DNA from: an uncultured Candidatus Saccharibacteria bacterium
GTDB taxonomy: Bacteria > Patescibacteriota > Saccharimonadia > Saccharimonadales > Saccharimonadaceae
NCBI GenBank assembly: GCA_947428935.1
Contig: CANENS010000009.1
Span: 1 to 55,937 of the forward strand
Reading direction: 5' to 3'
Length of the DNA: 55,937 bases
The notes below the pieces were generated by a model. That model did not search any database. It was given only the letters and a program-made list of their open reading frames with translations, and had not been told where the DNA came from. The position numbers and the translations under genes were made by a program. Within the stretch, counting starts at the first letter, position 1. Every line of letters begins with the position of its first letter. Positions 5,252 through 46,003 of this stretch are shown piece by piece.

Positions 5252-6052
5252 ATGGAGATGGGAAATGATCAAGTTACGGCTCAAGAAACAGCGGAAATTA
5301 TGCGGCTCGCTAGGCAAGGCTTAGAGGTTGAAGGGGATTTTGTGGAGTTGGGTTGTTATCGCGGTGATACATCGGTTTTGTTAGGGAAGCTATTAGTTGA
5401 AAGCGCTTCACCGTTCGTAAATTGTGGAAAACCTGTGGAAAACTTGCGTAAAAGTAGCCAAAAGATGTGTAAAAATCACTCAAATCAGTGCAAAACTAAC
5501 GAAAAACTGTGCAAAACTTCGTCTAATTTGGTGGAAAACCTGTCCAAAAATCCCATATCCGCCGTGGAAAAACCGTGTAAAAACGCCGAAATTTCTAGAG
5601 ATTACAGTAATTTTGCGCTGAAAAAACTCTGGCTTTACGATTCATTTGCCGGTTTGCCAGAGAAAAGCTTGGCCGATCAATCAGGCGCTGGGCAAAGTTT
5701 CCAAAAAGGCGAATTTTTGGTCACGAAGCGTGCGGTGGTCGAGAAGATGCGCCGGCACGGGCTGAAAAATGTGATCGTGAAAAAGGCTTGGTTTGCCGAT
5801 TTAACAGATGCAGATTTGCCGCCGCAAATCGCTTTTGCTTTTCTGGACGGCGATCTCTATGAGTCGATCAAAGTCAGCCTCCAGCTGGTCGCCCCGAGAC
5901 TCACCAAGCGGGGAATTATAGTCGTACATGATTATAATAATCCCGAGCTACCAGGGGCGAGCCGGGCAGTCGAGGAATTTTTGCGCGCGCGTCCGTGCTT
6001 TCGTTTTCAACAAAAGCATAGTCTGGCAATTTTGCAAGAAAAGTGCCCCTAG
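5252..6052 (+). CDS. TylF/MycF-like SAM-dependent methyltransferase with in-frame motif-island insertion
   Basis: This looks like a class I O-methyltransferase of the TylF (macrocin O-methyltransferase) family. The SAM-binding motif VELGCYRGDTSVLLGKLL lies near residue 35, LWLYDSFAGLPEKS in the middle, FAFLDGDLYESIKVSL and IIVVHDYNNPELPGASRAV near the C-terminus. The acidic residues in the last two would bind metal in this family. Between the first and second motif lies a Lys/Asn/Cys-rich stretch of about 55 residues encoded by motif island B, where relatives have a short loop, so it looks inserted. TATAAT (5240-5245) sits exactly six bases before ATG 5252, suggesting a leaderless mRNA. An in-frame TTG at 5237 lies inside the promoter. 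The substrate is unknown. Confidence 0.75.
   Translation: MEMGNDQVTAQETAEIMRLARQGLEVEGDFVELGCYRGDTSVLLGKLLVESASPFVNCGKPVENLRKSSQKMCKNHSNQCKTNEKLCKTSSNLVENLSKNPISAVEKPCKNAEISRDYSNFALKKLWLYDSFAGLPEKSLADQSGAGQSFQKGEFLVTKRAVVEKMRRHGLKNVIVKKAWFADLTDADLPPQIAFAFLDGDLYESIKVSLQLVAPRLTKRGIIVVHDYNNPELPGASRAVEEFLRARPCFRFQQKHSLAILQEKCP
5422..5584 (+). repeat. TGTGGAAAAC motif island B (inside methyltransferase gene)
   Basis: About ten degenerate copies of the island A motif lie on the same strand in 163 bases, opening with TTGTGGAAAACCTGTGGAA. The frame stays open through the island and encodes peptides such as GKPVENLRKS and NEKLCKTSSNLVENLSK. Nothing in the family structure calls for this stretch, so it appears to be an in-frame insertion or expansion. 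Confidence 0.75.
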
Positions 6053-11276: not shown

Positions 11277-12743
11277 ATGAAAAGAAGCCAAGTTTTTGTC
11301 ACTTCGGCTCTTGCCCTTTCGCTTGGCATTGCGGGACTGATGCCAACCGTATCGACTTACGCCGATGGTAGTACCGCTTGTGATGCTGGCGATAAGTCTG
11401 TTAATGTCGCGGCCGATGCAACTTTTGCTAGCACGATCGACAATTTGAACGCGGCCGAACCAGGATCGGTAGAAATCACGACCGATGCAGATGGCAAAAC
11501 GGTCTATACCTTGAAGCAGAATATCTGTGTCAGTGGTACGGCTGCTGTTGCAGAAAAAGGTATGGTCGTGTCTGGCAATATTATCCTGGATCTAAGCGGC
11601 CATCATATCGCGACTGACGATGCTGATGCGCGGTTGATCAATGTTGGCAAGAAAGATGGTGATTTGCAGAGTTCGATTGCAATCAAGGGTGCTGGTACGG
11701 TCGCCGCGAGTAAGGGAATTCCAGTGCGCGTTTATGGTGGCACCGCTGCGGGCAAAGTGCAAAACGCAGTTGATTTGAGCAACAAAGCCGTGCTTGATGG
11801 CGATGTTTATGGTTTGATGATAGGCGCTAATAGCAACAACAGCGCTCATGACGTTACTGTTACGGCTAGCGATAGTACAATTAAAGGCGCTCAAGGTGGT
11901 ATGTATGTGAACGGTAATGCTCAGGATGGCGACGTGAATATTTCCATTGAGAACGGTTCGACTGTTTCTGGCGGCACTGATTCGGGTATTTATGCTGCAG
12001 GTAAGGCGGAATGGATAATTGATAACTCTACCGTCACTGGCTATACTGGCATTAGTGCCAAAGCTGGGACGTTCACTCTGAACAATGCTAACGTCACGGG
12101 CAACGGTGCGAAACAAACGCCTGATCCAGCCAATAGTAATGGCATGGGTGAGACTGGCGCCGCGATCGCGATCGAGAGCAACCCAAGTTATGCCGGCGGG
12201 GTTAATATGACCATCAATGGCGGTACTTACACTAGCGCACATAACAGTACTTTCTTAAATTACCAGAATGGTAATTATACTGGCGATGGTGAGATCGAAA
12301 ATCTGACGGTTAACTACGGTCAGTTTAACAGCGCACCTGGCGAGCCGGTTTTCGCGGGCTTCGACAATGGTAAAGCTGCTGAAAACACTTTGGTGGCAGG
12401 CGGCACTTTTAGCAGCAACACTGGTATCGATCAATTCCTGCCGGCGGGTTCCGAACTCTCGCAGGATGCCAACGGTAACTTTATCGTGGTTCGTCCAAAC
12501 GGCATGGGCTCGAATGCGGAGCAAGGTAATGCTAACTCGAACCAAACTAGTGCTGAGCAGGATACCGATCAGGCAGCTAAGGCGGCTGATGCTCCCGAAA
12601 CTGGTGCCAGCGTTAAGGGTGAGGCCAGTGCCAAATCTTCTGCTACTTCGATTATGGCCAAAATTGCAACCGCGATCACTATGGCTGGTATTGGCGTCTT
12701 CTACGCACGTCGCCGTGCTGAGCAGCGCAAGCATAACGCTTAA
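11277..12743 (+). CDS. secreted beta-helix surface protein with sortase-type tail
   Basis: This 488-residue protein has a signal peptide (MKRSQVFVTSALALSLGIAG, cleavage probably near residue 29). A long region follows of short beta-strand repeats typical of right-handed parallel beta-helices (ILDLSGHHIA, VRVYGGTAAG, YGLMIGANSNNS, MYVNGNAQDG, MTINGGTYTSAHN). The C-terminus carries APETG at about residues 439-443, a hydrophobic stretch (about 459-479) and a basic tail (RRRAEQRKHNA). That is the layout of an LPxTG-like sortase substrate. It is probably anchored to the envelope and may contact the host cell. Own strong promoter and terminator. A paralogue lies at 13146-16091. The ligand is unknown, and the sortase is not in this window. 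Confidence 0.85.
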   Translation: MKRSQVFVTSALALSLGIAGLMPTVSTYADGSTACDAGDKSVNVAADATFASTIDNLNAAEPGSVEITTDADGKTVYTLKQNICVSGTAAVAEKGMVVSGNIILDLSGHHIATDDADARLINVGKKDGDLQSSIAIKGAGTVAASKGIPVRVYGGTAAGKVQNAVDLSNKAVLDGDVYGLMIGANSNNSAHDVTVTASDSTIKGAQGGMYVNGNAQDGDVNISIENGSTVSGGTDSGIYAAGKAEWIIDNSTVTGYTGISAKAGTFTLNNANVTGNGAKQTPDPANSNGMGETGAAIAIESNPSYAGGVNMTINGGTYTSAHNSTFLNYQNGNYTGDGEIENLTVNYGQFNSAPGEPVFAGFDNGKAAENTLVAGGTFSSNTGIDQFLPAGSELSQDANGNFIVVRPNGMGSNAEQGNANSNQTSAEQDTDQAAKAADAPETGASVKGEASAKSSATSIMAKIATAITMAGIGVFYARRRAEQRKHNA

Positions 12744-12765
12744 TACTCTCAAAAATAAAATTAAA

Positions 12766-12796
12766 ACGAGCCCCTTTCAAGGGGCTCGTTTTTTTG
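12766..12796 (+). terminator. rho-independent terminator
   Basis: ACGAGCCCC (12766-12774) pairs with GGGGCTCGT (12781-12789), followed by a run of seven T residues. Confidence 0.95.
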
Positions 12797-12817: not shown

Positions 12818-12974
12818 TTACAAAATACCTTTTTTCAAAACCTGGAGTATACTAATCAAATACAAAAGTATACTCTTTTGTATTTGAAAAATACCAAAAA
12901 TGACAGGGGCGATTTAATACATGTACTCATCAGTAAACTTTTCTAGGCTAGGAGTAAGATTTTGGAAGTGGGAA
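12818..12974 (+). repeat. left arm of a 157-bp inverted repeat
   Basis: This arm is the reverse complement of 16103-16260 with only two substitutions and one single-base indel. It contains an internal 28-bp near-palindrome (AAATACAAAAG...CTTTTGTATTT, about 12857-12884) and AGTATACT twice. Together the arms bound a 3.4-kb segment holding one gene. No ORF lies in the arm. Confidence 0.95.
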
Positions 12975-13039
12975 AACACCCCAAAAACACTCTAGAGAAT
13001 GTTTATGAAAAGGTCATCAAAACAAAATTGAATTATTTT

Positions 13040-13057
13040 AAACATAAATACTTTAAT
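13040..13057 (+). promoter_or_regulatory. second copy of the 18-bp motif
   Basis: Identical to 11131-11148. It lies 22 bases upstream of the -35 box at 13080. Confidence 0.5.
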
Positions 13058-13079
13058 ATAGGTATGACTAAAAATCAAC

Positions 13080-13108
13080 TTGCAAAAATTACGAAAGTTT
13101 GTTAAAAT
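13080..13108 (+). promoter_or_regulatory. promoter of the inverted-repeat-bounded gene
   Basis: TTGCAA (13080-13085), a 17-base spacer and TAAAAT (13103-13108). It lies between the inverted repeats, so it would turn around together with the gene if the segment inverted. Confidence 0.7.
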
Positions 13109-13145
13109 AATACTATGTTAGCGAAAGAGTGAAGAGAGTTATAGC

Positions 13146-16091
13146 ATGGGAAGAGCAAAAGCAACTAAAACTAGCACTGTCGAGCGTCGCACTAAGGCGC
13201 CAGCAGCTAAGACCTCATCAGTTCGCAAAAAAAATAAAACCGAGAAACGCACCCGCAAAAAAGCTCCCGCAGTGGCAGTTCTTGAAGAGGAAGCGTTAGC
13301 GGAAATTGAAGTGCCATACTTGGCGCCGCCCGTACGAGTCGAGCAGCCCAGTTTGGAAACCTTGTTGGGCACCGACAACCCGAATTACGTTGATTATAAT
13401 CCTAATGGCATTAAAAGTGCGGAAGAATTGATTTCGGCCTTGCAGGATACTGCACACCCTTATCCGCATCTTGTCTTGGCCGAGGAAATTTTTACTGATA
13501 GTGACATTGTGATTAGCCGCGATGTGACTTTGGATCTTAATGGTCATAATTTAATCGCGACGAGAAGCGGTAGCCAAGCCTTGCAGATCAAAAGCGGGAA
13601 TGTAGTTTTGACTGGTGGAGGGAAGGAAAGCCGGATTTTTGCTGAAGCGCCGGGTAGCTTGGCCGTACGGATTTATGGATCGTCAAACGCTTTGGTCACG
13701 GAGCATGCGCGAGTAACGATTGACCGCGACGTTACCTTATTTGCTTCCGGTTCGTATGGAGTTTTGGTGCGTGCTAATGTTAATGCTTGTTACGGCGTAG
13801 TGCTGAATCTGCGAGGCAGAATTATCGCGCGTGATGGCATTGCGATTCATGAAAATGTTCAGAATGTACAGGGTGCGCCGATCATGAATATTGAAGATGG
13901 CGCGGAGATTGCCGCGGAATATACCGCAATTCGCTCGAATGGTTACAGTATTTGGCATATTGGTAATGTGGAGCTGACCGGAAATTATGGACTGAGCATG
14001 CGAGCGGGCGTGGCGAATTTGAATAATACCCAGATTGCGACTAGCGGTCTCGATTTGGGCGAAAAGGACGCCGCCATGATTAATAATCATGGCGGAGATT
14101 TCGAGGCTCTGCTCAGCGCGGTGCGAGATCCGGAAGCACTCGCGGAGATTAACGCCATGCTGGGGGGCGGCGCAATTAAAATCGAAAATCATCCTCAGTA
14201 TAGCAATAGCATCGCCGTAACAATTGACGGCGGAAGTTATGTTAGCCGGTCCGGTTATGTCTTTTTCGAAGATAATTGCCGCGCCGCCCCCCAGCAACTA
14301 GCCCACTCAGCTTTGCGAGATTTTACCATTCTCGGTGGTCAGTTCAGTGGGGCTCTGGGAGCCTTTAGTCCTGGGTTGAGCGAAATTGTACAAATTGAAG
14401 ATGGGAAATTTCTGGATTTACCGGCAGAACAGCAGCAATTGGTGCAGCTCGAGACGCGCCCAGAATTGTATGGCTATCGTGATCCAGAATTTGCACCGCA
14501 AAATAACCTATACTGGAACCAGGACAGCTCGCAAATTACCGCGTATACCGAGAATTTTCCCGCAAAATCCGCTTTTGCTACCGATTTGCCGAACTCGTAT
14601 AATCAGACCACTCCTGATATTACATCGGCTGTCATGGGGGATGCGCAAGAATATGATATGAGCGCAGATTGGTCAAATGATGCCGCATCGGAGAACTTAG
14701 CGTCTCGGACTAGCCAAGCCTCAGGGTTTTACGATCAAGCAACTGGTGATTTCGATATTCAGTCAGTACCTCAGCCACGAGACGTCGCGCTGCAAACATC
14801 AGCCGTGCAGGTGGAGGAAGTTTCGCCTGCTACGATTGCTGGAAAATTCGAGTCCGAAATAGCCCAAACTAGTAATTCGACTGTCGCCGATTTGGTCTCA
14901 GCCGAAGATGATCGGCACAATAAAGATTGGATCTTGGCGGATCGTGAGGAGGCGGACGATTTTGATTTCTTTTGGGATGACGAAGGTGTTGAAGATTTCT
15001 CAGAGATCGACCAAACAGCCGACTCAAACGGGTTTTTGGATTTTGAATATTTGCCGCACGAATCTGCTCGGCACGAAACCGCAATGAGCGATTTTGATCT
15101 CGAGGAAGCTTGGAATAGCGCCATGGAAAGCAGTAGTCGACATCCTTTCAAGAATCGGGAACGAGCCTCTAAGCGATCGGATGCAGATGCTCAAAATTTG
15201 CTTTTCTCGAAAAAGCCAGAACATCCGCTCGTTGATGCGTCGCATGACATGGCGGAAACGCCTAGTGATCCAGAAGGAACAACTTATCCTGCTCTACCCG
15301 TCGTTACTGTGGAAGCTGATCAGGAGGCCGCACTGGCTCAATCATCAGGCTTGGCCCCGCAGTTACCGGCCGCGCGGACGGCAACCGAGGATAATTCGGC
15401 GGCGGAAATCGCCCGGCTCAAAATGGCCTTGTCCGAAGCGATCAACATGGCGCGCGGCCTTAAAGTGACCGATTATGTTTCTGGCTTTACTGAGCTTCAG
15501 ACCACCATCCTGGTCGCGAGCACGGTTTACCTCGACCAAAATTCCACTTTAGAAAATATTCGCGACGTTACTTTTCGTCTGGCCTCTGCCTTGGAGCAAT
15601 TAGTCGAGCAGCCTACCATGGTTCCGACCCTAAATTCCTCAATCACAAACCCCGAAGTTTCATCGCCTTCCTATTTCTGCCTCATGGATAATGATTTAAT
15701 TTCGGCCAGTTATGAATTGAATCATTATTTAGCTACTTCGGCAAGCGGTAACACCGAAACGATGCTTGATCTTTCCAATTTGGAGCAAATCTCCGCGCAT
15801 ATTTTAGCTTTGTCGGAAGAAAATTACACGCAAAAGAGTTACACGCATCTTCTTGCGACTTTGTCTGATGCGCAGAGTTTAGTTGATGACACCGAAGTTA
15901 CGCAGGATAAGATTGACACTGCGGTTTATGAGCTGAATCTTGCGCTTTCGGCTTTGCAAGCGTCGCGACATCATCGTCGGATTCAAAAAACCAAGGTGCG
16001 CGTCGGGATTTTTGGCAGTTTGAAGGCTGGTGCCGCCGCCGGAATTTCGGCTTATCGTCATAGTCGTATCGGCTCACCTCAAAATCTCTAA
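13146..16091 (+). CDS. large beta-helix and FIVAR-like protein
   Basis: This 981-residue protein starts with a very basic, disordered stretch (residues 1-40, rich in Lys, Arg, Thr) and has no recognisable signal peptide. Residues about 110-430 form a beta-helix clearly related to the neighbouring surface protein (LDLNGHNLIA, VRIYGSS, YGVLVRANVNA, VTIDGGSYVSRSGYVFF). Residues about 440-740 are acidic and probably disordered. Two FIVAR-like three-helix units follow (about 752-820 and 875-940, the latter ending TQDKIDTAVYELNLALSAL), then a basic tail. FIVAR repeats are usual in cell-surface adhesins, so lack of a secretion signal is odd; export by another route or an internal role are both open. 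The gene is the only one between the 157-bp inverted repeats. Its start follows GAAGAGAG. Confidence 0.8.
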   Translation: MGRAKATKTSTVERRTKAPAAKTSSVRKKNKTEKRTRKKAPAVAVLEEEALAEIEVPYLAPPVRVEQPSLETLLGTDNPNYVDYNPNGIKSAEELISALQDTAHPYPHLVLAEEIFTDSDIVISRDVTLDLNGHNLIATRSGSQALQIKSGNVVLTGGGKESRIFAEAPGSLAVRIYGSSNALVTEHARVTIDRDVTLFASGSYGVLVRANVNACYGVVLNLRGRIIARDGIAIHENVQNVQGAPIMNIEDGAEIAAEYTAIRSNGYSIWHIGNVELTGNYGLSMRAGVANLNNTQIATSGLDLGEKDAAMINNHGGDFEALLSAVRDPEALAEINAMLGGGAIKIENHPQYSNSIAVTIDGGSYVSRSGYVFFEDNCRAAPQQLAHSALRDFTILGGQFSGALGAFSPGLSEIVQIEDGKFLDLPAEQQQLVQLETRPELYGYRDPEFAPQNNLYWNQDSSQITAYTENFPAKSAFATDLPNSYNQTTPDITSAVMGDAQEYDMSADWSNDAASENLASRTSQASGFYDQATGDFDIQSVPQPRDVALQTSAVQVEEVSPATIAGKFESEIAQTSNSTVADLVSAEDDRHNKDWILADREEADDFDFFWDDEGVEDFSEIDQTADSNGFLDFEYLPHESARHETAMSDFDLEEAWNSAMESSSRHPFKNRERASKRSDADAQNLLFSKKPEHPLVDASHDMAETPSDPEGTTYPALPVVTVEADQEAALAQSSGLAPQLPAARTATEDNSAAEIARLKMALSEAINMARGLKVTDYVSGFTELQTTILVASTVYLDQNSTLENIRDVTFRLASALEQLVEQPTMVPTLNSSITNPEVSSPSYFCLMDNDLISASYELNHYLATSASGNTETMLDLSNLEQISAHILALSEENYTQKSYTHLLATLSDAQSLVDDTEVTQDKIDTAVYELNLALSALQASRHHRRIQKTKVRVGIFGSLKAGAAAGISAYRHSRIGSPQNL

Positions 16092-16102
16092 AAATAAGAA
16101 AA

Positions 16103-16260
16103 TTCCCACTTCCAAAATCTTACTCCTAGCCTAGAAAAGTTTACTGATGAGTACATGTATTAAATCGCCCCTGTCATTTTTGGTATTTTTCAAATACAAA
16201 AGAGTATACTTTTGTATTTGATTAGCATACTCCGGGTTTTGAAAAAAGGGTATTTTGTAA
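16103..16260 (-). repeat. right arm of the 157-bp inverted repeat
   Basis: Reverse complement of 12818-12974. Begins 11 bases after the stop codon of the enclosed gene and ends 55 bases before comEC. No target-site duplication is obvious outside the arms, although a CTCAT is shared just beyond both. Confidence 0.95.
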
Positions 16261-16315
16261 TGAAAATGAGACTCAGGGGTTGTAAAATTATCAAAAAGTA
16301 TACTATACTGCAACC

Positions 16316-18034
16316 ATGCCGAAAAAATCCCTCGGTTCAGCGAAACGAAAAGTGATATTCCTACACCCTTCTTTTTGTTTCTACGCGGGAATTTGGGGGA
16401 TTATTTTTGGTATTGTATTTGGCTTAGTTGTGCGTCAACGTTTGGATCTAAGTTGGGCTTGGCTGATCGTTGCGAGCCTATTTTTACTAATTGCGCTGCG
16501 CTTTGCGAATATTTTTATGCTGCCATTGGCGTTTTGCGCGGGGTTTATCGTAGCTAGTTTTCGGATTAATTTTGATTTGACCGGTCAGGTGCAGTTTGCC
16601 GAGCTGACGGGAAACGAAGTGACGCTTAGCGGAACCATTATGGAAGATCCAGATCCTAAGGACAATATGGTAGTATTGCGACTTTCGCGAATTTCTCTTC
16701 GTCAAGCTGCTGGAACTAGTGCTGTGGAAAACATGTGGAAAACTGGTGCAAAACTTTCCAAAAGTGGTGGAAAACTAGCAAAAAATGTGGAGAAAATTGG
16801 TGAAAACTGTGGAGAAAATGTGTATAAATATACCACAGATGGTGGAAAAGGTGTGCAAAAAGTTTTGCTGGCCTCAGTCCAAAACGCTGGAAAGATGCAA
16901 AGTTCTTCGGGTGAAGATGGAGAATGGACGAAGCTGGACGGTGTAATTTATGTGCGACTCAGTACTACGGCGGAGCTTGAACGTTCTGATCGAATTATTT
17001 TGCGTGGCAAAATTAGTGACGGATTTGGCACCTTTGTCGGCAGCATGTATCGGCCGAAATTGCTCGAGCAACAAAAACCCAATCCACCCGACCTTTTTGT
17101 CCAACTTAAAAACTGGTTTTCGCGGGCCACGCACAAATTCATTTCTAGTCCCGCGGCGGAGTTGGGGCTGGGCTATTTGATGGGCATGAAAACTGGGTTG
17201 CCGGCCGACCTCGTTACTACTCTGCAAATCGTCGGGATGACGCACGTGGTAGTTGCCTCCGGCGCGCATCTGGGAATTTTGACTAATATGGCGAAAAGGC
17301 TTTTCGGAAAATTTTCGAAGTTCGCAGGTACTTTTGCGGCGCTGCTCATGATCGTTTTTTTCGTCATGCTAGTCGGTTTCACGCCATCTATGACACGGGC
17401 AGGGCTAGTCGCTAGCCTTTCGCTCTTGGTCGGATATGTCGGCCGCAAATTTTCACCGCTGCGTTTGATTAGCTTAGTTGCTGCGCTAACTTTGCTGATT
17501 ACGCCGATCAATCTACTGAACTTAGGCTGGCAACTTTCCTTCGCCTCCTTTTTTGGCATTTTGCTGCTAGCACCGCGCATTCAAAAGTTGCTTTATGGTG
17601 GCAAAAAAGTGCCATGGCTAGCCGGTATGTTGATTACGAGCGTTGCTACTAGTTTGGTCTGTGCGCCAATTTTGATTTATAATTTTGGTAGCATTTCCTT
17701 TTTGTCACTAGTAGCGAATTTAGTCATTTTGCCGACTTTGCCTTACGCTATGTTGTTGGTTTTTCTAACCGGAATTGCTAGCTTCTGGCCTATGTTGGCG
17801 CAAGCTTTAGGAAAAATGGCGGAGCTGGTGCTCAACTTGCATATCGATCTGGTTAATTTCTTGAGTGAGAAAACGATGTTTGTGCTGACGATAGAAGCTG
17901 AGGAGCCGCGCATTTTTCTGCTTTATTTACCAATTATTATGTTTCTAGTTATCGTAGCTATTGTCCAACTTAAACGTAAGATTGGAAAAATGCCTATGCG
18001 ATCGTCGAGTCAAGCAACCAGCTCGATTTCGTAG
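16316..18034 (+). CDS. comEC: ComEC competence channel without hydrolase domain
   Basis: ComEC forms the inner-membrane pore for single-stranded DNA during natural transformation. The 572-residue protein has N-terminal membrane segments and an OB-fold region (VTLSGTIMEDPDPKDNMVVL). The competence domain carries TTLQIVGMTHVVVASGAHLG and then GFTPSMTRAGLVASLSLL, followed by many membrane helices. The C-terminal metallo-beta-lactamase domain of full-length ComEC (700-800 residues) is absent. A Lys/Gly/Asn-rich stretch of about 50 residues in the OB-fold (about residues 135-183) is encoded by motif island C and looks inserted. TATACT (16304-16309) is followed by six bases and ATG 16316, so the mRNA is probably leaderless. 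Confidence 0.9.
   Translation: MPKKSLGSAKRKVIFLHPSFCFYAGIWGIIFGIVFGLVVRQRLDLSWAWLIVASLFLLIALRFANIFMLPLAFCAGFIVASFRINFDLTGQVQFAELTGNEVTLSGTIMEDPDPKDNMVVLRLSRISLRQAAGTSAVENMWKTGAKLSKSGGKLAKNVEKIGENCGENVYKYTTDGGKGVQKVLLASVQNAGKMQSSSGEDGEWTKLDGVIYVRLSTTAELERSDRIILRGKISDGFGTFVGSMYRPKLLEQQKPNPPDLFVQLKNWFSRATHKFISSPAAELGLGYLMGMKTGLPADLVTTLQIVGMTHVVVASGAHLGILTNMAKRLFGKFSKFAGTFAALLMIVFFVMLVGFTPSMTRAGLVASLSLLVGYVGRKFSPLRLISLVAALTLLITPINLLNLGWQLSFASFFGILLLAPRIQKLLYGGKKVPWLAGMLITSVATSLVCAPILIYNFGSISFLSLVANLVILPTLPYAMLLVFLTGIASFWPMLAQALGKMAELVLNLHIDLVNFLSEKTMFVLTIEAEEPRIFLLYLPIIMFLVIVAIVQLKRKIGKMPMRSSSQATSSIS
16722..16862 (+). repeat. TGTGGAAAAC motif island C (inside comEC)
   Basis: About ten copies of the island motif on the plus strand in 140 bases, including a DnaA-box-type TGTGTATAA at 16819-16827. 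The reading frame stays open and encodes repeated GGK and ENxxK peptides. The stretch encoding ENCGENVYK is nearly identical to part of island A (GAGAAAACTGTGGAGAAAA in A), which shows common origin. Confidence 0.75.
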
Positions 18035-39066: not shown

Positions 39067-39092
39067 CAAGATATTTATTGCGAGGGAATCAA

Positions 39093-42000
39093 ATGAACGA
39101 AAAGCGACCTTATTATATTGGATTAGACTGCGGTACGAATTCTGTGGGATGGGCAGCAACGGATGAAAAATATCATTTATTAAAAGGCACCCGTCGTATT
39201 AAAAATGATAAAGGATTAAAAACTAAAAAACAGACTTTATGGGGTTTTCGATTATTTGACGAGGCAAACACCGCTGCGGAACGACGTGTGCAGCGCTCGA
39301 CTCGTCGTCGTGGGGCGCGAGCTAAAAATAGACTTAAACTGCTACGTATGCTTTTTCGAGATGAAATCGCAGAAGTTGATCCAGGATTTTATCAACGTCT
39401 CAAGGAAAGCTTTTATTACGAAGAAGATAAAAGATTGCGACGTAATTCTAAAAACACATTGTTTAATGATCAGAATTTTACAGATAGAGATTTTCATGCT
39501 GAGTACCCGACTATTTGGCATTTACGTCAGTCTATAATTGATCCGAAAAATAAGGACAAAAAATTCGATATTCGATTGTATTTTCTGGCCATTCAGCATA
39601 TTCTGAAGCACCGCGGTCATTTTCTACTGCAAGGAAATATTGGTGATGGTGGCGCTGACTTTCTGCCACTTTTTGATGCCTTTCGCGATGAGGCGGAGCG
39701 TCTAGGGTGTAGGATTGCGGATGTACCGAACGAAGTCGGAGCACTGCTGATGAAAGAGTCTAGTAAAACTGACAAGAAGAAAGATTTAAAAAATATTTTA
39801 TATCTTGAAGGCGATGAGTTGGACGAGGATGCGCCAAAGGGGCAAGCCGAGCTTGCGGGGCTTTTGGTTGGATCGAAAGTAAACTTAAAAAAGATTTTCG
39901 CGATTGAGGATGAAGAGAAGTTTCCTTACTCATTTGCCGAAGGTGTATTCGAGGATAAAATACTGGATATTGAGCAAGCAATTGGTGCCGAAAATTTAGA
40001 TTTGGTCTATGCCGCTAAAAATATTTACGATTACGTTGTTTTGCATAATCTACTTGGTAAGCATAAAATGATTTCCGATGCAATGGTTGTAAACTATGAA
40101 CTACACGAAGAGGATTTAGGGAAGCTAAAGAAAATTTTCAAACCACACAAAGAACTTTATCATAAATTATTTAAAACAGAACTATATGATGAAAAGTTTC
40201 CAAGTTATGATGCTTATATTGGCAAAGCCTATACACAAGACAAGAGTGGTCGCAAATCCAGTAAAAGTATTAATCAGGAAGATTTCAATAAACATTTACA
40301 CAAATTATTGACGGAAATCAAACCAAAAACCAGTCCTGATCTTTTGCCGTTAGTCGACGAGCTACTCGAACGAACGGAAACTGGCGAAAAGTCTACTTTA
40401 TCGTTTCTACTCCCGAAGCAACGCGGGCAGGCAAAAGGGACTATCCCCATGCAGTTGCACGCCAACGAATTGAACATAATCTTGGAGAAATTACAGCGCG
40501 ACTACCCAAGTTTTGCGGTGGAAGTAGCAGGCGAAAAATCGGAATATAATACCAAGGCAAAGAAAATTCTGAAAATCCATTCATTTCGAATTCCGTATTA
40601 CTGCGGCCCAATTGTGAAGCGGAAATATGATGATAACGGTAAGCTAGTGCCAAAGGGTAAAAGTCAATTTTCATGGGCGGACGAAGAAATTTCCGAATTA
40701 GTTTATCCATGGAATTTCGATGAACTTGTTAATAAAGATGGGCGTGCACAAAACTTTATTCGCCGCATGACTAACGAATGCACTTATCTTCTGGGTGAAG
40801 ACGTTTTGCCAAAAAACTCGTTAATTTATCAAAAATTCATGGTTCTAAACGAGCTGAATAATCTTAAAATTAATAATCAGAGAATTGATAATCGCCTTAA
40901 ACAACAAATTTTCGAATGTGGTTATGAAAAAGGGGAATTAAAAGGCGATATTACGCTCAAAAAATTAGAACGTTGGTGTAAGGATAATAGTTTAATCGGC
41001 AATAACGACGAACTGAGCGGAACTAGTGAAGTAAAAAATTTACCAAAATATCAAACCTATCAAGATTTTTGCCGTATTCTGGGTGACGATTTTGGGCAAA
41101 AATATACTCAAACTAAATTAGAAAAAATCATAGAATTGATTACGATTCTGGGCGACGAAAAAGATATGTTGGGTAGAAGCATTCAACGTGAGTTGGACTG
41201 CGATTCAGAGCTAGCAAAGAAACTTAGTAAGCTTTCATATAAGGACTGGGGACGTATGTCAGCTAAATTTCTCGATGGTATTGTGGTGAATAACCATACT
41301 ATCCTTGACTACCTATGGGAAGACAATAAGAATTTGATGGAATTACTAGGTCAGGAAGTTGGTTTCGGAAAAGTTGTTGAGCAGTATAATGATACTAAGC
41401 TTCCAGCTTCTGCCAAAATCAATTATCAAGATGTTGTAAAACTGTATTGCTCTCCTGCCGTCAAAAGATCGGTTTGGCAAACTATCAAGATCGTCAATGA
41501 ATTAGTGAAGAATATTGGCTGTGCACCAGCGAAAATTTTCTTGGAAGTTACGCGCGGTGAAGATCCAAAATCTAAAGGTAAATATACTTTGGCACGCAAA
41601 AGGGATTTAGAAACAAAATTTAAGGCCGTTAAAACCGACAATGCTAGAGCAATTTTGGAGCAACTCGAGGGTTTCGAAGATCGTGATCTACAAAGTAAGA
41701 AGCTTTTCTTGTATTTTTCGCAGATGGGCAAATGCGCTTATTCGGGTGAGCCAATTAATCTTGAGGATCTAAATAATTCACAACTTTACGATATCGATCA
41801 TATTTATCCACGCTCAAAAACTAAAGACGACAGTATTACACGCAATTTAGTTTTAGTAAAGGCTAGTTTGAATCGTGAAAAAACTAATACATATCCAATT
41901 AGCGAATCGATACGCGGTAAAATGCGTGGAATGTGGGCGGCATGGCTACGCGCGGGTTTAATCACAAAAGAAAAATACGAGCGTTTAGTGCGCTCCACGC

Positions 42001-43355
42001 CGCTCACAGATGATGAACTCGGTGGTTTTATCGCACGACAATTGGTCGAAACCAGCCAGTCGGTCAAGGCAATTCGAGATTTGTTGTCCCGTATTTACCC
42101 AGCAACAAAAATTGTGATGGTGAAGGCGGGGCAAGTTTCAGAATTTCGCCATCTGATGGGTGGCGACAAGAAAGATAAAACAGGAAATATTTGTCAGAAG
42201 GGCAAATACGAGTTTATTAAAGTGCGCGATCTTAACGACCTACACCACGCCAAAGATGCCTACCTAAATATTGTGGTTGGCAATGTCATGCATGAAACTT
42301 TTACTGATAATCCCTATGAATGGATTAAAAAACGTGAAGGTAAAGAATATTCTATCCGTCCAGAAAGAATTTTTCGGGAAAGTCAGACGTATCAACTCTC
42401 GGATGGTCGGCAAACTTCGTATCCAAAAGTTCGAGGTTGGGATTTTGCTGAAAGTACCAAGATTGTTAGCGATACGATGAAACGCAATGACGTGATTTGG
42501 GCACGCATGAATTATGTCGAAAGTAAAGAAATTTCTGACTTGCAGCTAGTCGGGAAAGGAGGGAAATCAGAAAACTTGTTGCGAATTAAAAGGCAGGATC
42601 GCCTGGATCCTAAAAAGTATGGAGGATATAATTCGCTTAAAGGTGCGCATTTTGCCTTAATCGAGGCTAAAAACAAAAAAGGGGAAGTCGAGCGTCGCCT
42701 TATCCAAATTCCAATTATTGCGAGAAATGATGTAGAAAAATATGTTAATGAGAATTATCCCGGTGCACAAGTAATTATTTCGGTAATCAAGATAAAATCA
42801 AAATTAAAGATTGATCATATTCCAATTTGCATTATGAATAAAGATTCGGAATCAAAGAACGGCTATTGTCACGCACTTCAGGCTCTATTTCCGGCGAATC
42901 ATAACTATTACCTGAAGAAGATTTCCGCAGTCGTAAAAAAGGATCAGCTCGCACGCTCTAACTATGAGATAAGTGAACGAGATGAAGTTAATATCGAAGG
43001 AAATTTAGCGATTTACGATCTGTTTTGCCGGAAGCTTAATCTGTATTCTGGGTTACCGGAACTTGCGAGTGTAATCCCCAAGATTTTATCCAGTAAGGAA
43101 AAGTTCGCTCGGCTGGATCTTAAACAGCAATGCCTAACTCTTAGTCAGATGCTAAATATACTTTCTTGTGGTCCTCAAAATGCCAAACTCGGTAATATTG
43201 GTTGTGGAGATAACGCTGGCAGAATTCGAATCAGTAATGATAAATTGTTTAAATTTACAGAGTTATATTTAGTTAACCAATCTCCTACCGGTCTTTATGA
43301 AGAAATAATTGATCTAAAAACTGTCCAACCTAAGAAATCTTGGAAAGCAGCATAG
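39093..43355 (+). CDS. cas9: Cas9 endonuclease, type II-A
   Basis: This 1420-residue RNA-guided nuclease cuts both DNA strands at protospacers. RuvC-I is YYIGLDCGTNSVGWAATD (D12), and the Arg-rich bridge helix is at about residues 63-90 (AERRVQRSTRRRGARAKNRL). RuvC-II is KIFLEVTRGED (E818). The HNH active site is YDIDHIYPRS (H903), and RuvC-III is HHAKDAYLNIVVGN (H1051, H1052, D1055). All catalytic residues are present. The C-terminal PAM-interacting domain has DPKKYGGY and R1377-I-R1379, aligned with R1333 and R1335 of the Streptococcus pyogenes enzyme. ATG 39093 has GAGGGA ahead of it. cas1 starts directly after the stop codon. An intact frame suggests the gene is under selection. Confidence 0.97.
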   Translation: MNEKRPYYIGLDCGTNSVGWAATDEKYHLLKGTRRIKNDKGLKTKKQTLWGFRLFDEANTAAERRVQRSTRRRGARAKNRLKLLRMLFRDEIAEVDPGFYQRLKESFYYEEDKRLRRNSKNTLFNDQNFTDRDFHAEYPTIWHLRQSIIDPKNKDKKFDIRLYFLAIQHILKHRGHFLLQGNIGDGGADFLPLFDAFRDEAERLGCRIADVPNEVGALLMKESSKTDKKKDLKNILYLEGDELDEDAPKGQAELAGLLVGSKVNLKKIFAIEDEEKFPYSFAEGVFEDKILDIEQAIGAENLDLVYAAKNIYDYVVLHNLLGKHKMISDAMVVNYELHEEDLGKLKKIFKPHKELYHKLFKTELYDEKFPSYDAYIGKAYTQDKSGRKSSKSINQEDFNKHLHKLLTEIKPKTSPDLLPLVDELLERTETGEKSTLSFLLPKQRGQAKGTIPMQLHANELNIILEKLQRDYPSFAVEVAGEKSEYNTKAKKILKIHSFRIPYYCGPIVKRKYDDNGKLVPKGKSQFSWADEEISELVYPWNFDELVNKDGRAQNFIRRMTNECTYLLGEDVLPKNSLIYQKFMVLNELNNLKINNQRIDNRLKQQIFECGYEKGELKGDITLKKLERWCKDNSLIGNNDELSGTSEVKNLPKYQTYQDFCRILGDDFGQKYTQTKLEKIIELITILGDEKDMLGRSIQRELDCDSELAKKLSKLSYKDWGRMSAKFLDGIVVNNHTILDYLWEDNKNLMELLGQEVGFGKVVEQYNDTKLPASAKINYQDVVKLYCSPAVKRSVWQTIKIVNELVKNIGCAPAKIFLEVTRGEDPKSKGKYTLARKRDLETKFKAVKTDNARAILEQLEGFEDRDLQSKKLFLYFSQMGKCAYSGEPINLEDLNNSQLYDIDHIYPRSKTKDDSITRNLVLVKASLNREKTNTYPISESIRGKMRGMWAAWLRAGLITKEKYERLVRSTPLTDDELGGFIARQLVETSQSVKAIRDLLSRIYPATKIVMVKAGQVSEFRHLMGGDKKDKTGNICQKGKYEFIKVRDLNDLHHAKDAYLNIVVGNVMHETFTDNPYEWIKKREGKEYSIRPERIFRESQTYQLSDGRQTSYPKVRGWDFAESTKIVSDTMKRNDVIWARMNYVESKEISDLQLVGKGGKSENLLRIKRQDRLDPKKYGGYNSLKGAHFALIEAKNKKGEVERRLIQIPIIARNDVEKYVNENYPGAQVIISVIKIKSKLKIDHIPICIMNKDSESKNGYCHALQALFPANHNYYLKKISAVVKKDQLARSNYEISERDEVNIEGNLAIYDLFCRKLNLYSGLPELASVIPKILSSKEKFARLDLKQQCLTLSQMLNILSCGPQNAKLGNIGCGDNAGRIRISNDKLFKFTELYLVNQSPTGLYEEIIDLKTVQPKKSWKAA

Positions 43356-44238
43356 ATGTCTTGGCGGGTGGTAGTAATTTCGAAACGCAGTAAGCTTGAT
43401 TATAAAATGGGGTCGCTAGTGGTGCGTAGCGGTGAGGATGAGAAACGCATTTTTTCTCAATGATATATCGGTATTAATGTGCGAAAGCACGGCAATTTCA
43501 ATTACGGCCTATTTGCTTGCGGAGCTGACATCGCGCAAAATTAAGGTGATCTTTTGCGATAACCAACATAATCCAGCATCTGAACTTATTCCGATGCACG
43601 GTAGTTATGTCAGTAGCGGAAGAATTCGCGAACAAATTGCTTGGACCGATGAAGGCAAAGCGAAAGTTTGGCAGAAAATCGTGCAGCACAAAATCACCAA
43701 TCAGGCTTTAGTATTAAGGCGAGCCGGCCAAGATAAAAAGAGTGAGCAGCTGTTGGCGTACGCTGTGCAAGTCGAACCTGGAGATAAAACTAATCGCGAA
43801 GGACACGCTGCGAAAGTCTACTTCAATTCGCTATTTGGTTTAGAATTTTACCGCGATGCTAGCGATATTAGAAATGCGATTCTCAATTATGGATATACCA
43901 TTTTGCTCGCATGTTTTAATCGCGAAATCGCAGCTAGCGGTTATTTAACTCAACTTGGAATTTGGCATGACAATGCAGAAAATCCGTTCAATCTTGGTTC
44001 GGACTTAATGGAGCCATTTCGACCAATTATTGATGAATTTGCTTATAAGCATTCGTATTTCAAGACTTTTGAAAAAGATGAAAAACTGCAAGTTCTAAAC
44101 CTACTAAATTCAAAAGTTGAGATCGATAGTACCGAGCAATTTTTGAATAACGCAATTGGCATATATAGCCGCAGTATATTTAACGCGTTATCTGGTGAGG
44201 ACAACAAAATTAAAAATATCAGCTGGTATGAGTTATAG
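43356..44238 (+). pseudogene. cas1: cas1, interrupted by a +1 frameshift
   Basis: Cas1 is the integrase that inserts new spacers. Reading from ATG 43356, the base after the cas9 stop, gives the normal type II N-terminus MSWRVVVISKRSKLDYKMGS and LVVRSGEDEKRIF, then goes out of frame. The rest (LNDISVLMCESTAISITAYL, VIFCDNQHNPASELIPMHG, NREGHAAKVYFNSLFGLEF, YGYTILLACFNREIAASGY, FNLGSDLMEPFRPI) is in the next frame to the stop at 44238. The catalytic Glu, His and Asp are in these blocks. The T6 run at 43450-43455 needs five T residues to restore a 293-residue protein. An internal start at 43432 would lose the N-terminal beta domain. A sequencing error or transcript slippage are alternatives. Confidence 0.85.
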
Positions 44239-44548
44239 ATTTATGCGTGTTATTGTTATGTTTGACCTTCCGACTGAAACTTCGATGGATCGCCGCCATT
44301 ATCGCTGGTTTCGTAAATATCTGATAGATGAAGGTTTTGTCATGATGCAAGAATCAATTTATACCAAAATTTGTCTGAACATGCACGCCGTATCAAAAGT
44401 TGAACTTAATATTCAGAAAAATCGTCCGCCGAAGGGAATCGTACAAGTCATGAATATTACCGAAAAACAGTTCGCGTCTATGAAATTAGTGGTAGGGGAA
44501 GTTGATTCGGTCAATATTCAAAGCGACGAAAGGTTGATAGTTTTATGA
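44228..44548 (+). CDS. cas2: Cas2
   Basis: Cas2 bridges two Cas1 dimers in the spacer integration complex. The 106-residue protein starts MSYRFMRVIVMFDLPTETSM, with the ferredoxin-like fold's first strand and Asp, then RRHYRWFRKYLIDEGFVMMQ and SIYTKICLNMHAV, typical of type II Cas2. It overlaps the end of cas1 by 11 bases and ends in ATGA shared with csn2, so all adaptation genes are translationally coupled. Confidence 0.95.
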   Translation: MSYRFMRVIVMFDLPTETSMDRRHYRWFRKYLIDEGFVMMQESIYTKICLNMHAVSKVELNIQKNRPPKGIVQVMNITEKQFASMKLVVGEVDSVNIQSDERLIVL

Positions 44549-45213
44549 TTCTGCGACATTTGAATTTAGAACAGGAATTGGAGTGGACTGAAACTCGGCA
44601 TGTTTGTGAACTAGTTATTGAATCTCCGAAGTTTTTGCGAGAGATTATTAAGGACCTTACGATTACTGAAGAAGAAAAAGAACTTAGTATTACCGTAGAT
44701 GGTAAGCCCTTAGATTTCGATAAGGACACCGATGTGATTTTTAATCCACTTAAATTGGATTTTAATAGTAGGCGCGCGATGACTACATTGCTCAAAATGC
44801 TAGTTAAAACTTCCTTGTCTGAAGAATTCTACCTTGCCACCAATACGTTTAAATCTAAGATAGTTAAATATTTGGATGAGCTTATTGACGCCGAGGCTTT
44901 TAATTTTGAAGTTTCTACGGATGATTTTACAATCGATAGTATTGCCAAAGCCGTAAGCATACATATCGTCGGAGATGAGGATGACTTCGTTGAGCTGCTG
45001 ACCGATTATGTAGCCATGATGGTTGATCTGGCGAAGATTAAGCTATTCGTTTTTATCGGATTAAGGCCACTTATGACTGAAGAAGAGCTAGTTCGTTTTT
45101 GTCATAATCTCGATAACCATCAAATAGACATATTACTGATTGAAAGCTGTGTAGGTGAAACATTATCAAATGTGCCAAGAATTATCGTAGATACCGATAA
45201 TTGTGAAATCTGA
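44545..45213 (+). CDS. csn2: Csn2, type II-A adaptation protein
   Basis: Csn2 forms a ring-shaped tetramer that slides on double-stranded DNA ends and is required for spacer acquisition in type II-A systems. The 222-residue protein matches the canonical length. It begins MILRHLNLEQELEW and has DTDVIFNPLKLDFNSRRAMT, KIVKYLDELI, and a C-terminal IKLFVFIGLRPLMTEEELVR with DILLIESCVGE, which resembles the GLRxYLTxEEL and LLIE blocks of Csn2. Its presence defines subtype II-A. It shares ATGA with cas2. The CRISPR leader follows directly. Confidence 0.9.
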   Translation: MILRHLNLEQELEWTETRHVCELVIESPKFLREIIKDLTITEEEKELSITVDGKPLDFDKDTDVIFNPLKLDFNSRRAMTTLLKMLVKTSLSEEFYLATNTFKSKIVKYLDELIDAEAFNFEVSTDDFTIDSIAKAVSIHIVGDEDDFVELLTDYVAMMVDLAKIKLFVFIGLRPLMTEEELVRFCHNLDNHQIDILLIESCVGETLSNVPRIIVDTDNCEI

Positions 45214-45326
45214 GTTAAGTCGTGATATTAGTGTTCTGGGTTTGCACGTAGTATAATGATAGTAGTCAATGCGATATATTGATAAATAAGTCGTGTTTTT
45301 ATTAACGACACTTGAGCCAATTTGAG
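45214..45326 (+). promoter_or_regulatory. CRISPR leader with leader-anchoring sequence
   Basis: The 113 bases between csn2 and the first repeat are AT-rich. They hold TATAAT (about 45253-45258), two AAGTCGTG copies that echo part of the repeat, and a GTCGT/ACGAC hairpin. The last seven bases before repeat 1 are ATTTGAG (45320-45326), the leader-anchoring sequence known from one group of type II-A systems. This fixes the leader-proximal end of the array on the csn2 side. Confidence 0.8.
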
Positions 45327-46003
45327 GTTTGAGAGTCGTGTAATATCATCGTGTGACTGAACAAGTTTTTGGCAGACCATTCTAATGCTCTAGTTTGAGA
45401 GTCGTGTAATATCATCGTGTGACTGAACCCCTGTGGGAGGGGGTAGGCTTAGGCAATCGTTTGAGAGTCGTGTAATATCATCGTGTGACTGAACCCACCA
45501 CGCCACCACCACACCCGCACAGAAGTTTGAGAGTCGTGTAATATCATCGTGTGACTGAACTCCCATTATGATTGATAAGCCACTTCTTAAGTTTGAGAGT
45601 CGTGTAATATCATCGTGTGACTGAACGGCGACGGTACTGATTGACGGGGTGAGTGTGTTTGAGAGTCGTGTAATATCATCGTGTGACTGAACCCCTGTGG
45701 GAGGGGGTAGGCTTAGGCAATCGTTTGAGAGTCGTGTAATATCATCGTGTGACTGAACGCAGTTTGTCCGCCAGCTGCAGCTGCACTTGTTTGAGAGTCG
45801 TGTAATATCATCGTGTGACTGAACGCAGCTTGTCCGCCAGCTGCAGCTGCACTTGTTTGAGAGTCGTGTAATATCATCGTGTGACTGAACTCACAGGCTC
45901 GCAACGCACTTACTTACACAGTTTGAGAGTCGTGTAATATCATCGTGTGACTGAACTATAGTTGAATATATACAGGAATACAAAAGTTTGAGAGTCGTGT
46001 AAT
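45327..46003 (+). CRISPR. type II-A CRISPR array, ten full repeats plus a truncated one
   Basis: Ten identical 36-bp repeats (first at 45327-45362, beginning GTTTGAGAGTCGTGTAATAT and ending GTGTGACTGAAC) start at 45327, 45393, 45459, 45525, 45591, 45657, 45723, 45789, 45855 and 45921. A last repeat at 45986-46003 keeps only its first 18 bases, marking the old, trailer end. Spacers are 30 bases except the last (29). Spacers 2 (45429-45458) and 6 (45693-45722) are identical. Spacers 7 and 8 differ by one base. The repeat pairs with the tracrRNA anti-repeat. Confidence 0.98.

Follow-up and report, generated by a model that had tools for sequence, protein, structure and literature searches.

Our analysis shows that the near-perfect inverted repeats bracketing a single adhesin-like gene in the window (the whole stretch of 55,937 nucleotides analysed here, from an uncultured Candidatus Saccharibacteria bacterium) are both copies of an intergenic repeat whose family has about 17 members dispersed over the genome, and are not specific to this locus. 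Most probably, they are copies of a REP/MITE-like, helically phased repeat that arose by recent duplication or gene conversion and flank an ancestral gene. Being two copies of a dispersed repeat beside an older gene, the arms lend little support to a DNA on/off switch or to a mobile cassette, the two options that the original prediction had favoured.

That the arms are real, as had been claimed, is clear from pairwise alignment of 12818-12974 with 16103-16260, which are reverse complements (157/158 bp) but for two substitutions and a 1-bp indel. In a repeat search they emerge as 147-nt arms (12828-12974 / 16103-16249; 99% complementary, 3128 nt between) and form the sole inverted pair of at least 40 nt in the 56 kb window. 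Their content, too, is as described previously, namely a 981-aa ORF (13146-16091) with its promoter-like site (13080-13108) and nothing else; the list of ORFs between the arms includes neither a recombinase nor a transposase, and a recombinase is also absent among the neighbouring genes checked by Pfam. The locus is composed of the following features (model R2 is introduced below):

11277..12743, + strand: gene for a 488-aa paralogue of the enclosed protein, with signal peptide and C-terminal anchor
12763..12792, + strand: rho-independent terminator of this upstream gene; the left arm starts about 25 bp later
12818..12974, + strand: left arm (C9L), a copy of the dispersed 21-bp-unit repeat by alignment, unit pattern and model R2; units near 12825 (degenerate), at 12846 and 12867, then the core with CAGGGG, then units at 12932 and 12953
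13080..13108, + strand: promoter-like site TTGCAA-17-TAAAAT, located between the arms and belonging to the enclosed gene (consensus match only)
13146..16091, + strand: enclosed gene for a 981-aa pectate-lyase-like-adhesin/FIVAR-like protein with a basic N-terminus and no signal peptide
16103..16260, - strand: right arm (C9R), an oppositely oriented copy of the same dispersed repeat that agrees with C9L at 97% over 148 bp and is matched by model R2
16261..16323, - strand: possible degenerate outward extension of the right array that overlaps the promoter region of comEC (weak R2 match, 7.2 bits, E 0.8); a AGTATACT unit is readable in its sequence
16316..18034, + strand: comEC (competence protein), the conserved 3' neighbour (Pfam PF03772, E 2e-41)

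When the arm was compared by BLAST with its own genome (1,103,184 bases in 27 contigs), the two arms were returned at 100% and 98% along with short, weak and partial matches on contigs C14, C1 and C22, which are further members of the repeat family. Read out, these three sites consist of rows of 21-bp units (AGTAWAC, AGTAAGA or AGTATGC) on both sides of a CAGGGG or CAGAGG core. Two such units 21 bp apart (AGTAWRM-N14-AGTAWRM) match the genome 55 times as opposed to 2 times for a reversed control, and the five matches in the window, where none is expected, all fall within the arms. With a sequence model built from 12 copies (R1) we count 17 copies in the 1.1-Mb genome; arm-like elements stand alone at 15 other places. 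Model R2, made from ten copies with the two arms left out, still recovers both of them (12832-12966 and 16111-16245, each at E 1.9e-11), so that their family membership is established independently of their own sequences. No copies were found in viral contigs (two exact patterns searched) or plasmids, and a three-unit pattern compared with 85k named genomes gave, among the matches listed, scattered hits across many phyla. In the literature on repeats in Saccharibacteria/Patescibacteria we found no description of the family.

Each element is made of a core (..CAGGGGTgAAtt..; TTTTCCCAGGGGTgAATTA-like) set between degenerate 21-bp units (AGTAWACTT.., beginning AGTAWAC or AGTAAGA), which extend to about eight upstream and about six downstream of the core, chance matches being expected at about 1% per position. 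Spacing between neighbouring units is exactly 21 bp in 74 of 111 cases (14 copies), and the spacing across the core is 63-65 bp in 10 of the 14 as scored, the exceptions being copies in which a unit match is missing or due to chance plus C5a, whose core appears about one helical turn longer. Since 21 bp equal two and 63-65 bp about six helical turns, the sites stay on one face of the helix. RNAalifold found zero consensus pairs in an alignment of 12 copies, and Rfam gave nothing relevant for the six loci searched (the arm and elements), which together with the phased spacing argues for an array that operates at the level of DNA and may be bound by protein. If the element acts at all, it would do so as DNA, offering a one-face array to a cooperatively binding protein in the manner of a REP/BIME-like or nucleoid-type site. 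Copy boundaries are variable, and terminal inverted repeats within one element were not found when the arm start was compared with the reverse complement of the arm end.

Pairwise, the copies are 51-74% alike, apart from two near-identical groups. One unites C4, C7 and C8, which lie on contigs other than that of the window and agree at 100% over 148 bp, with C22 at 94%; the other is formed by the two arms themselves (97%), either of which is only 51-60% identical to other copies. The earlier view that arms so alike stem from recent duplication, gene conversion or recombination is supported, and the identity of C4, C7 and C8 at distant loci indicates that recent copying also occurs away from this locus. 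The copies are intergenic; the majority are 3' to at least one gene, and C5a is placed between divergent genes. About 1.5 kb from the element copy on C1 there is a serine recombinase gene (PF07508; L053 4971-6500, C1:143970-145499) that overlaps a tRNA match. In the window, one copy is located past the terminator of the upstream adhesin-like gene and the other, in opposite orientation, between the enclosed gene and comEC. To our minds, one arm was probably copied recently from, or converted by, the other, and the ancestral gene was simply bracketed by both. The family may spread as a non-autonomous repeat; with no binding protein or mobilising enzyme identified and neither target-site duplication nor terminal inverted repeat found, the word mobile relies on near-identical copies at different loci.

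The same locus in relatives bears directly on the history of the enclosed gene, whose product shares 30-39% identity over aligned regions with its closest relatives in the genus. In 11 genomes of the same genus its orthologue could be assigned a place next to comEC (G013, G024, G330, G333 and G350-G356; other species, one genome per species), and in 11/11 of them it lies immediately upstream of comEC with unchanged orientation; on the other side of the orthologue there is usually rimK. A comparison of related genomes for the arm and its orientation, which had been proposed along with the original prediction, speaks against it: at all 11 comEC loci there is no arm, no model match and no inverted pair around the gene, and gene orientation is constant. 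Inverted pairs that do occur at the loci of relatives (a 38-bp one of 82% in G355; short weak ones in G013 and G024) are all unrelated to the arms, and a single 15-base BLAST match to the arm in G333 falls within rimK.

How then do alternative explanations fare? An invertible segment, where homologous or site-specific recombination between the arms would flip the gene with its promoter and keep the arms identical, is in our opinion unlikely. Long, 99% identical inverted arms 3.1 kb apart, which are by far each other's closest copies, are what draws one to this option, and under random dispersal a given pair would lie as near as 3.3 kb with a chance of only about 0.6%. For a near-identical pair this hints at a local process more than at random scattering, and local recombination is conceivable; among 17 elements, some pair comes that close in 57% of random placements. 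The promoter-like site (13080-13108, from a consensus scan only) and the whole ORF are, however, inside the arms, so an inversion would carry the promoter along and by itself not switch the gene. Moreover, the present orientation is the ancestral one, shared by 11/11 relatives with no inverted arrangement in any of them, and no recombinase is linked to the arms: the serine-recombinase gene close to the C1 copy, which might otherwise lend support to inversion, lies on a different contig and has no linkage to the majority of copies.

Regarding the enclosed protein, it had been seen as a paralogue of the secreted surface protein next door. Paralogy stands, albeit as a distant one (25% identity to the product of 11277-12743, E 3.8e-8), whereas secretion of the enclosed protein is not supported given its basic N-terminus without the signal peptide that its neighbour has. 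This N-terminus (13146-13373) is Lys/Arg-rich and lacks a signal peptide likewise in the G350, G354 and G330 orthologues; other orthologues have a hydrophobic N-terminal start. The C-terminus appears FIVAR-like, FIVAR being our own reading of the matched regions, and the resemblance to pectate-lyase-like adhesins comes from the G024 orthologue, which matches PF20585 at E 5.9e-5, just under the curated cut-off.

A search of 173 other members of the genus gave divergent copies of the element in ten of them, the best being that of G330 at E 5.3e-9, and one weak match comes from a genome outside the family (G122, E 8e-4). In G015, units of the type AGTATGATTTT... run in-frame within ligA, xthA and prmC, gene names that are our reading of the translations for the part of the copies that was checked. 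With 21 bp amounting to seven codons, they specify EYDF-type peptides in LigA (L097 460-2517), an exonuclease III-like protein (L101 1217-2050) and a prmC-like methyltransferase (L109 1199-1918). In a LigA alignment of relatives, restricted to rows in which LigA was clearly recognisable (the window's own genome not among these), the unit site in ligA is a length-variable loop. Inverted contig ends on G024:C53 were considered as a transposon and rejected, as what they have in common is a long protein-coding stretch unrelated to the element.

Such variant AGTATGATTTT units in relatives, some of them in genome-maintenance genes such as ligA and xthA, may together with the adjoining comEC bring to mind sequences similar to DNA-uptake signals in genus-specific dialects. 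Uptake signals usually number hundreds of copies or more per genome, and a density as low as here (17 elements, and no more than 14 exact GAGTATRATTTT, a related variant, per genome) renders this very improbable. That the arms are the terminal inverted repeats of a composite transposon or cargo unit is suggested by layout only and hardly credible, since the gene occupies the same locus without arms in 11/11 relatives, and also in view of a missing transposase, of arm-like elements standing alone at 15 further places and of a search for target-site duplications around the arm-flanked unit that found none (longest common flank, AAAAT); judged from sequence comparison, the enclosed gene is ancestral rather than cargo. 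Finally, a structured RNA (3' UTR or sRNA) present twice would fit with many copies lying downstream of genes, some directly past terminators, and is scarcely tenable in light of the absent consensus pairs, the lack of relevant Rfam matches and the copies at C9R, C6 and C6:31126, which have opposite orientations relative to the upstream gene.

Further observations concern other parts of the window. Positions 39078-45959 contain a complete type II-A CRISPR-Cas locus with Cas9 (1425 aa, TIGR01865 E 1e-247), Cas1, Cas2, Csn2 and an array of about 9.5 units with a 66-bp period and the repeat GTTTGAGAGTCGTGTAATATCATCGTGTGACTGAAC. A second repeat type, TGTGGAAAAC, recurs in steps of about 11 bp at 2786-2858, 5423-5495 and 16723-16822 (the last within comEC) and resembles degenerate DnaA boxes; TGTGGAAAA is observed five times in the window compared with 0.8 expected. 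The very start of the contig (1-61) is a 9-bp tandem repeat, CCTCATAAT, in 6.8 copies.

Rather than phase variation, what we describe is a reduced genome with a dispersed, helically phased repeat family for which no described counterpart was found and whose divergent versions occupy intergenic regions and, in related species, even lie in-frame inside housekeeping genes. Should the arrays be bound by a protein, this little-studied lineage would have a candidate system of chromosome organisation or of mobile repeats. It is conceivable, albeit rather unlikely, that phased arrays with their conserved core serve a DNA-organising or recombining protein of the genus that has yet to be described, that related units entered genes in-frame by seven-codon steps and that recombination between facing copies such as the arms maintains their identity and may invert the adhesin-like gene beside comEC.

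Among known systems, the element resembles dispersed repeats of the REP/BIME or MITE type but fails the defining features tested (a tagged stem-loop; terminal inverted repeats). REP elements of the GTAG/CGTC kind are stem-loops of 20-40 bp tagged by GTAG or CGTC, the GTAG type being associated with RAYT transposases, and REPs are also reported from within replication and repair genes (PMC3733652). Our family is REP/BIME-like in that it is dispersed, clustered, mostly intergenic and downstream of genes, with some copies in replication/repair genes, and in its size, as many REP families have 20-100 units or fewer (PMC3733652). It differs in its unit, a direct repeat of 21 bp that is strung into long phased arrays on both sides of a core and forms no conserved stem-loop; the unit consensus (AGTAWAC...) bears neither the GTAG nor the CGTC tag. 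With MITEs it shares being short, non-coding and dispersed (17 copies) with recent near-identical copies (PMC10969869), yet terminal inverted repeats or target-site duplications were not found for the element and its boundaries vary. In-frame insertion into genes is known from Rickettsia palindromic elements (PMC10969869), and similarly, related units lie in-frame inside ordinary genes of relatives, 21 bp being seven codons. Here, however, these are 21-bp direct units and not palindromic 150-bp insertions, and the core-bearing copies of this genome are intergenic. The 22-bp iterons of R6K and the TnsB sites of Tn7 are iteron or multi-site arrays, and while our family occupies about 17 dispersed chromosomal loci with no linked Rep or Tns gene seen, it has in common with them direct repeats of 21-22 bp, placement on one helical face and a defined core.
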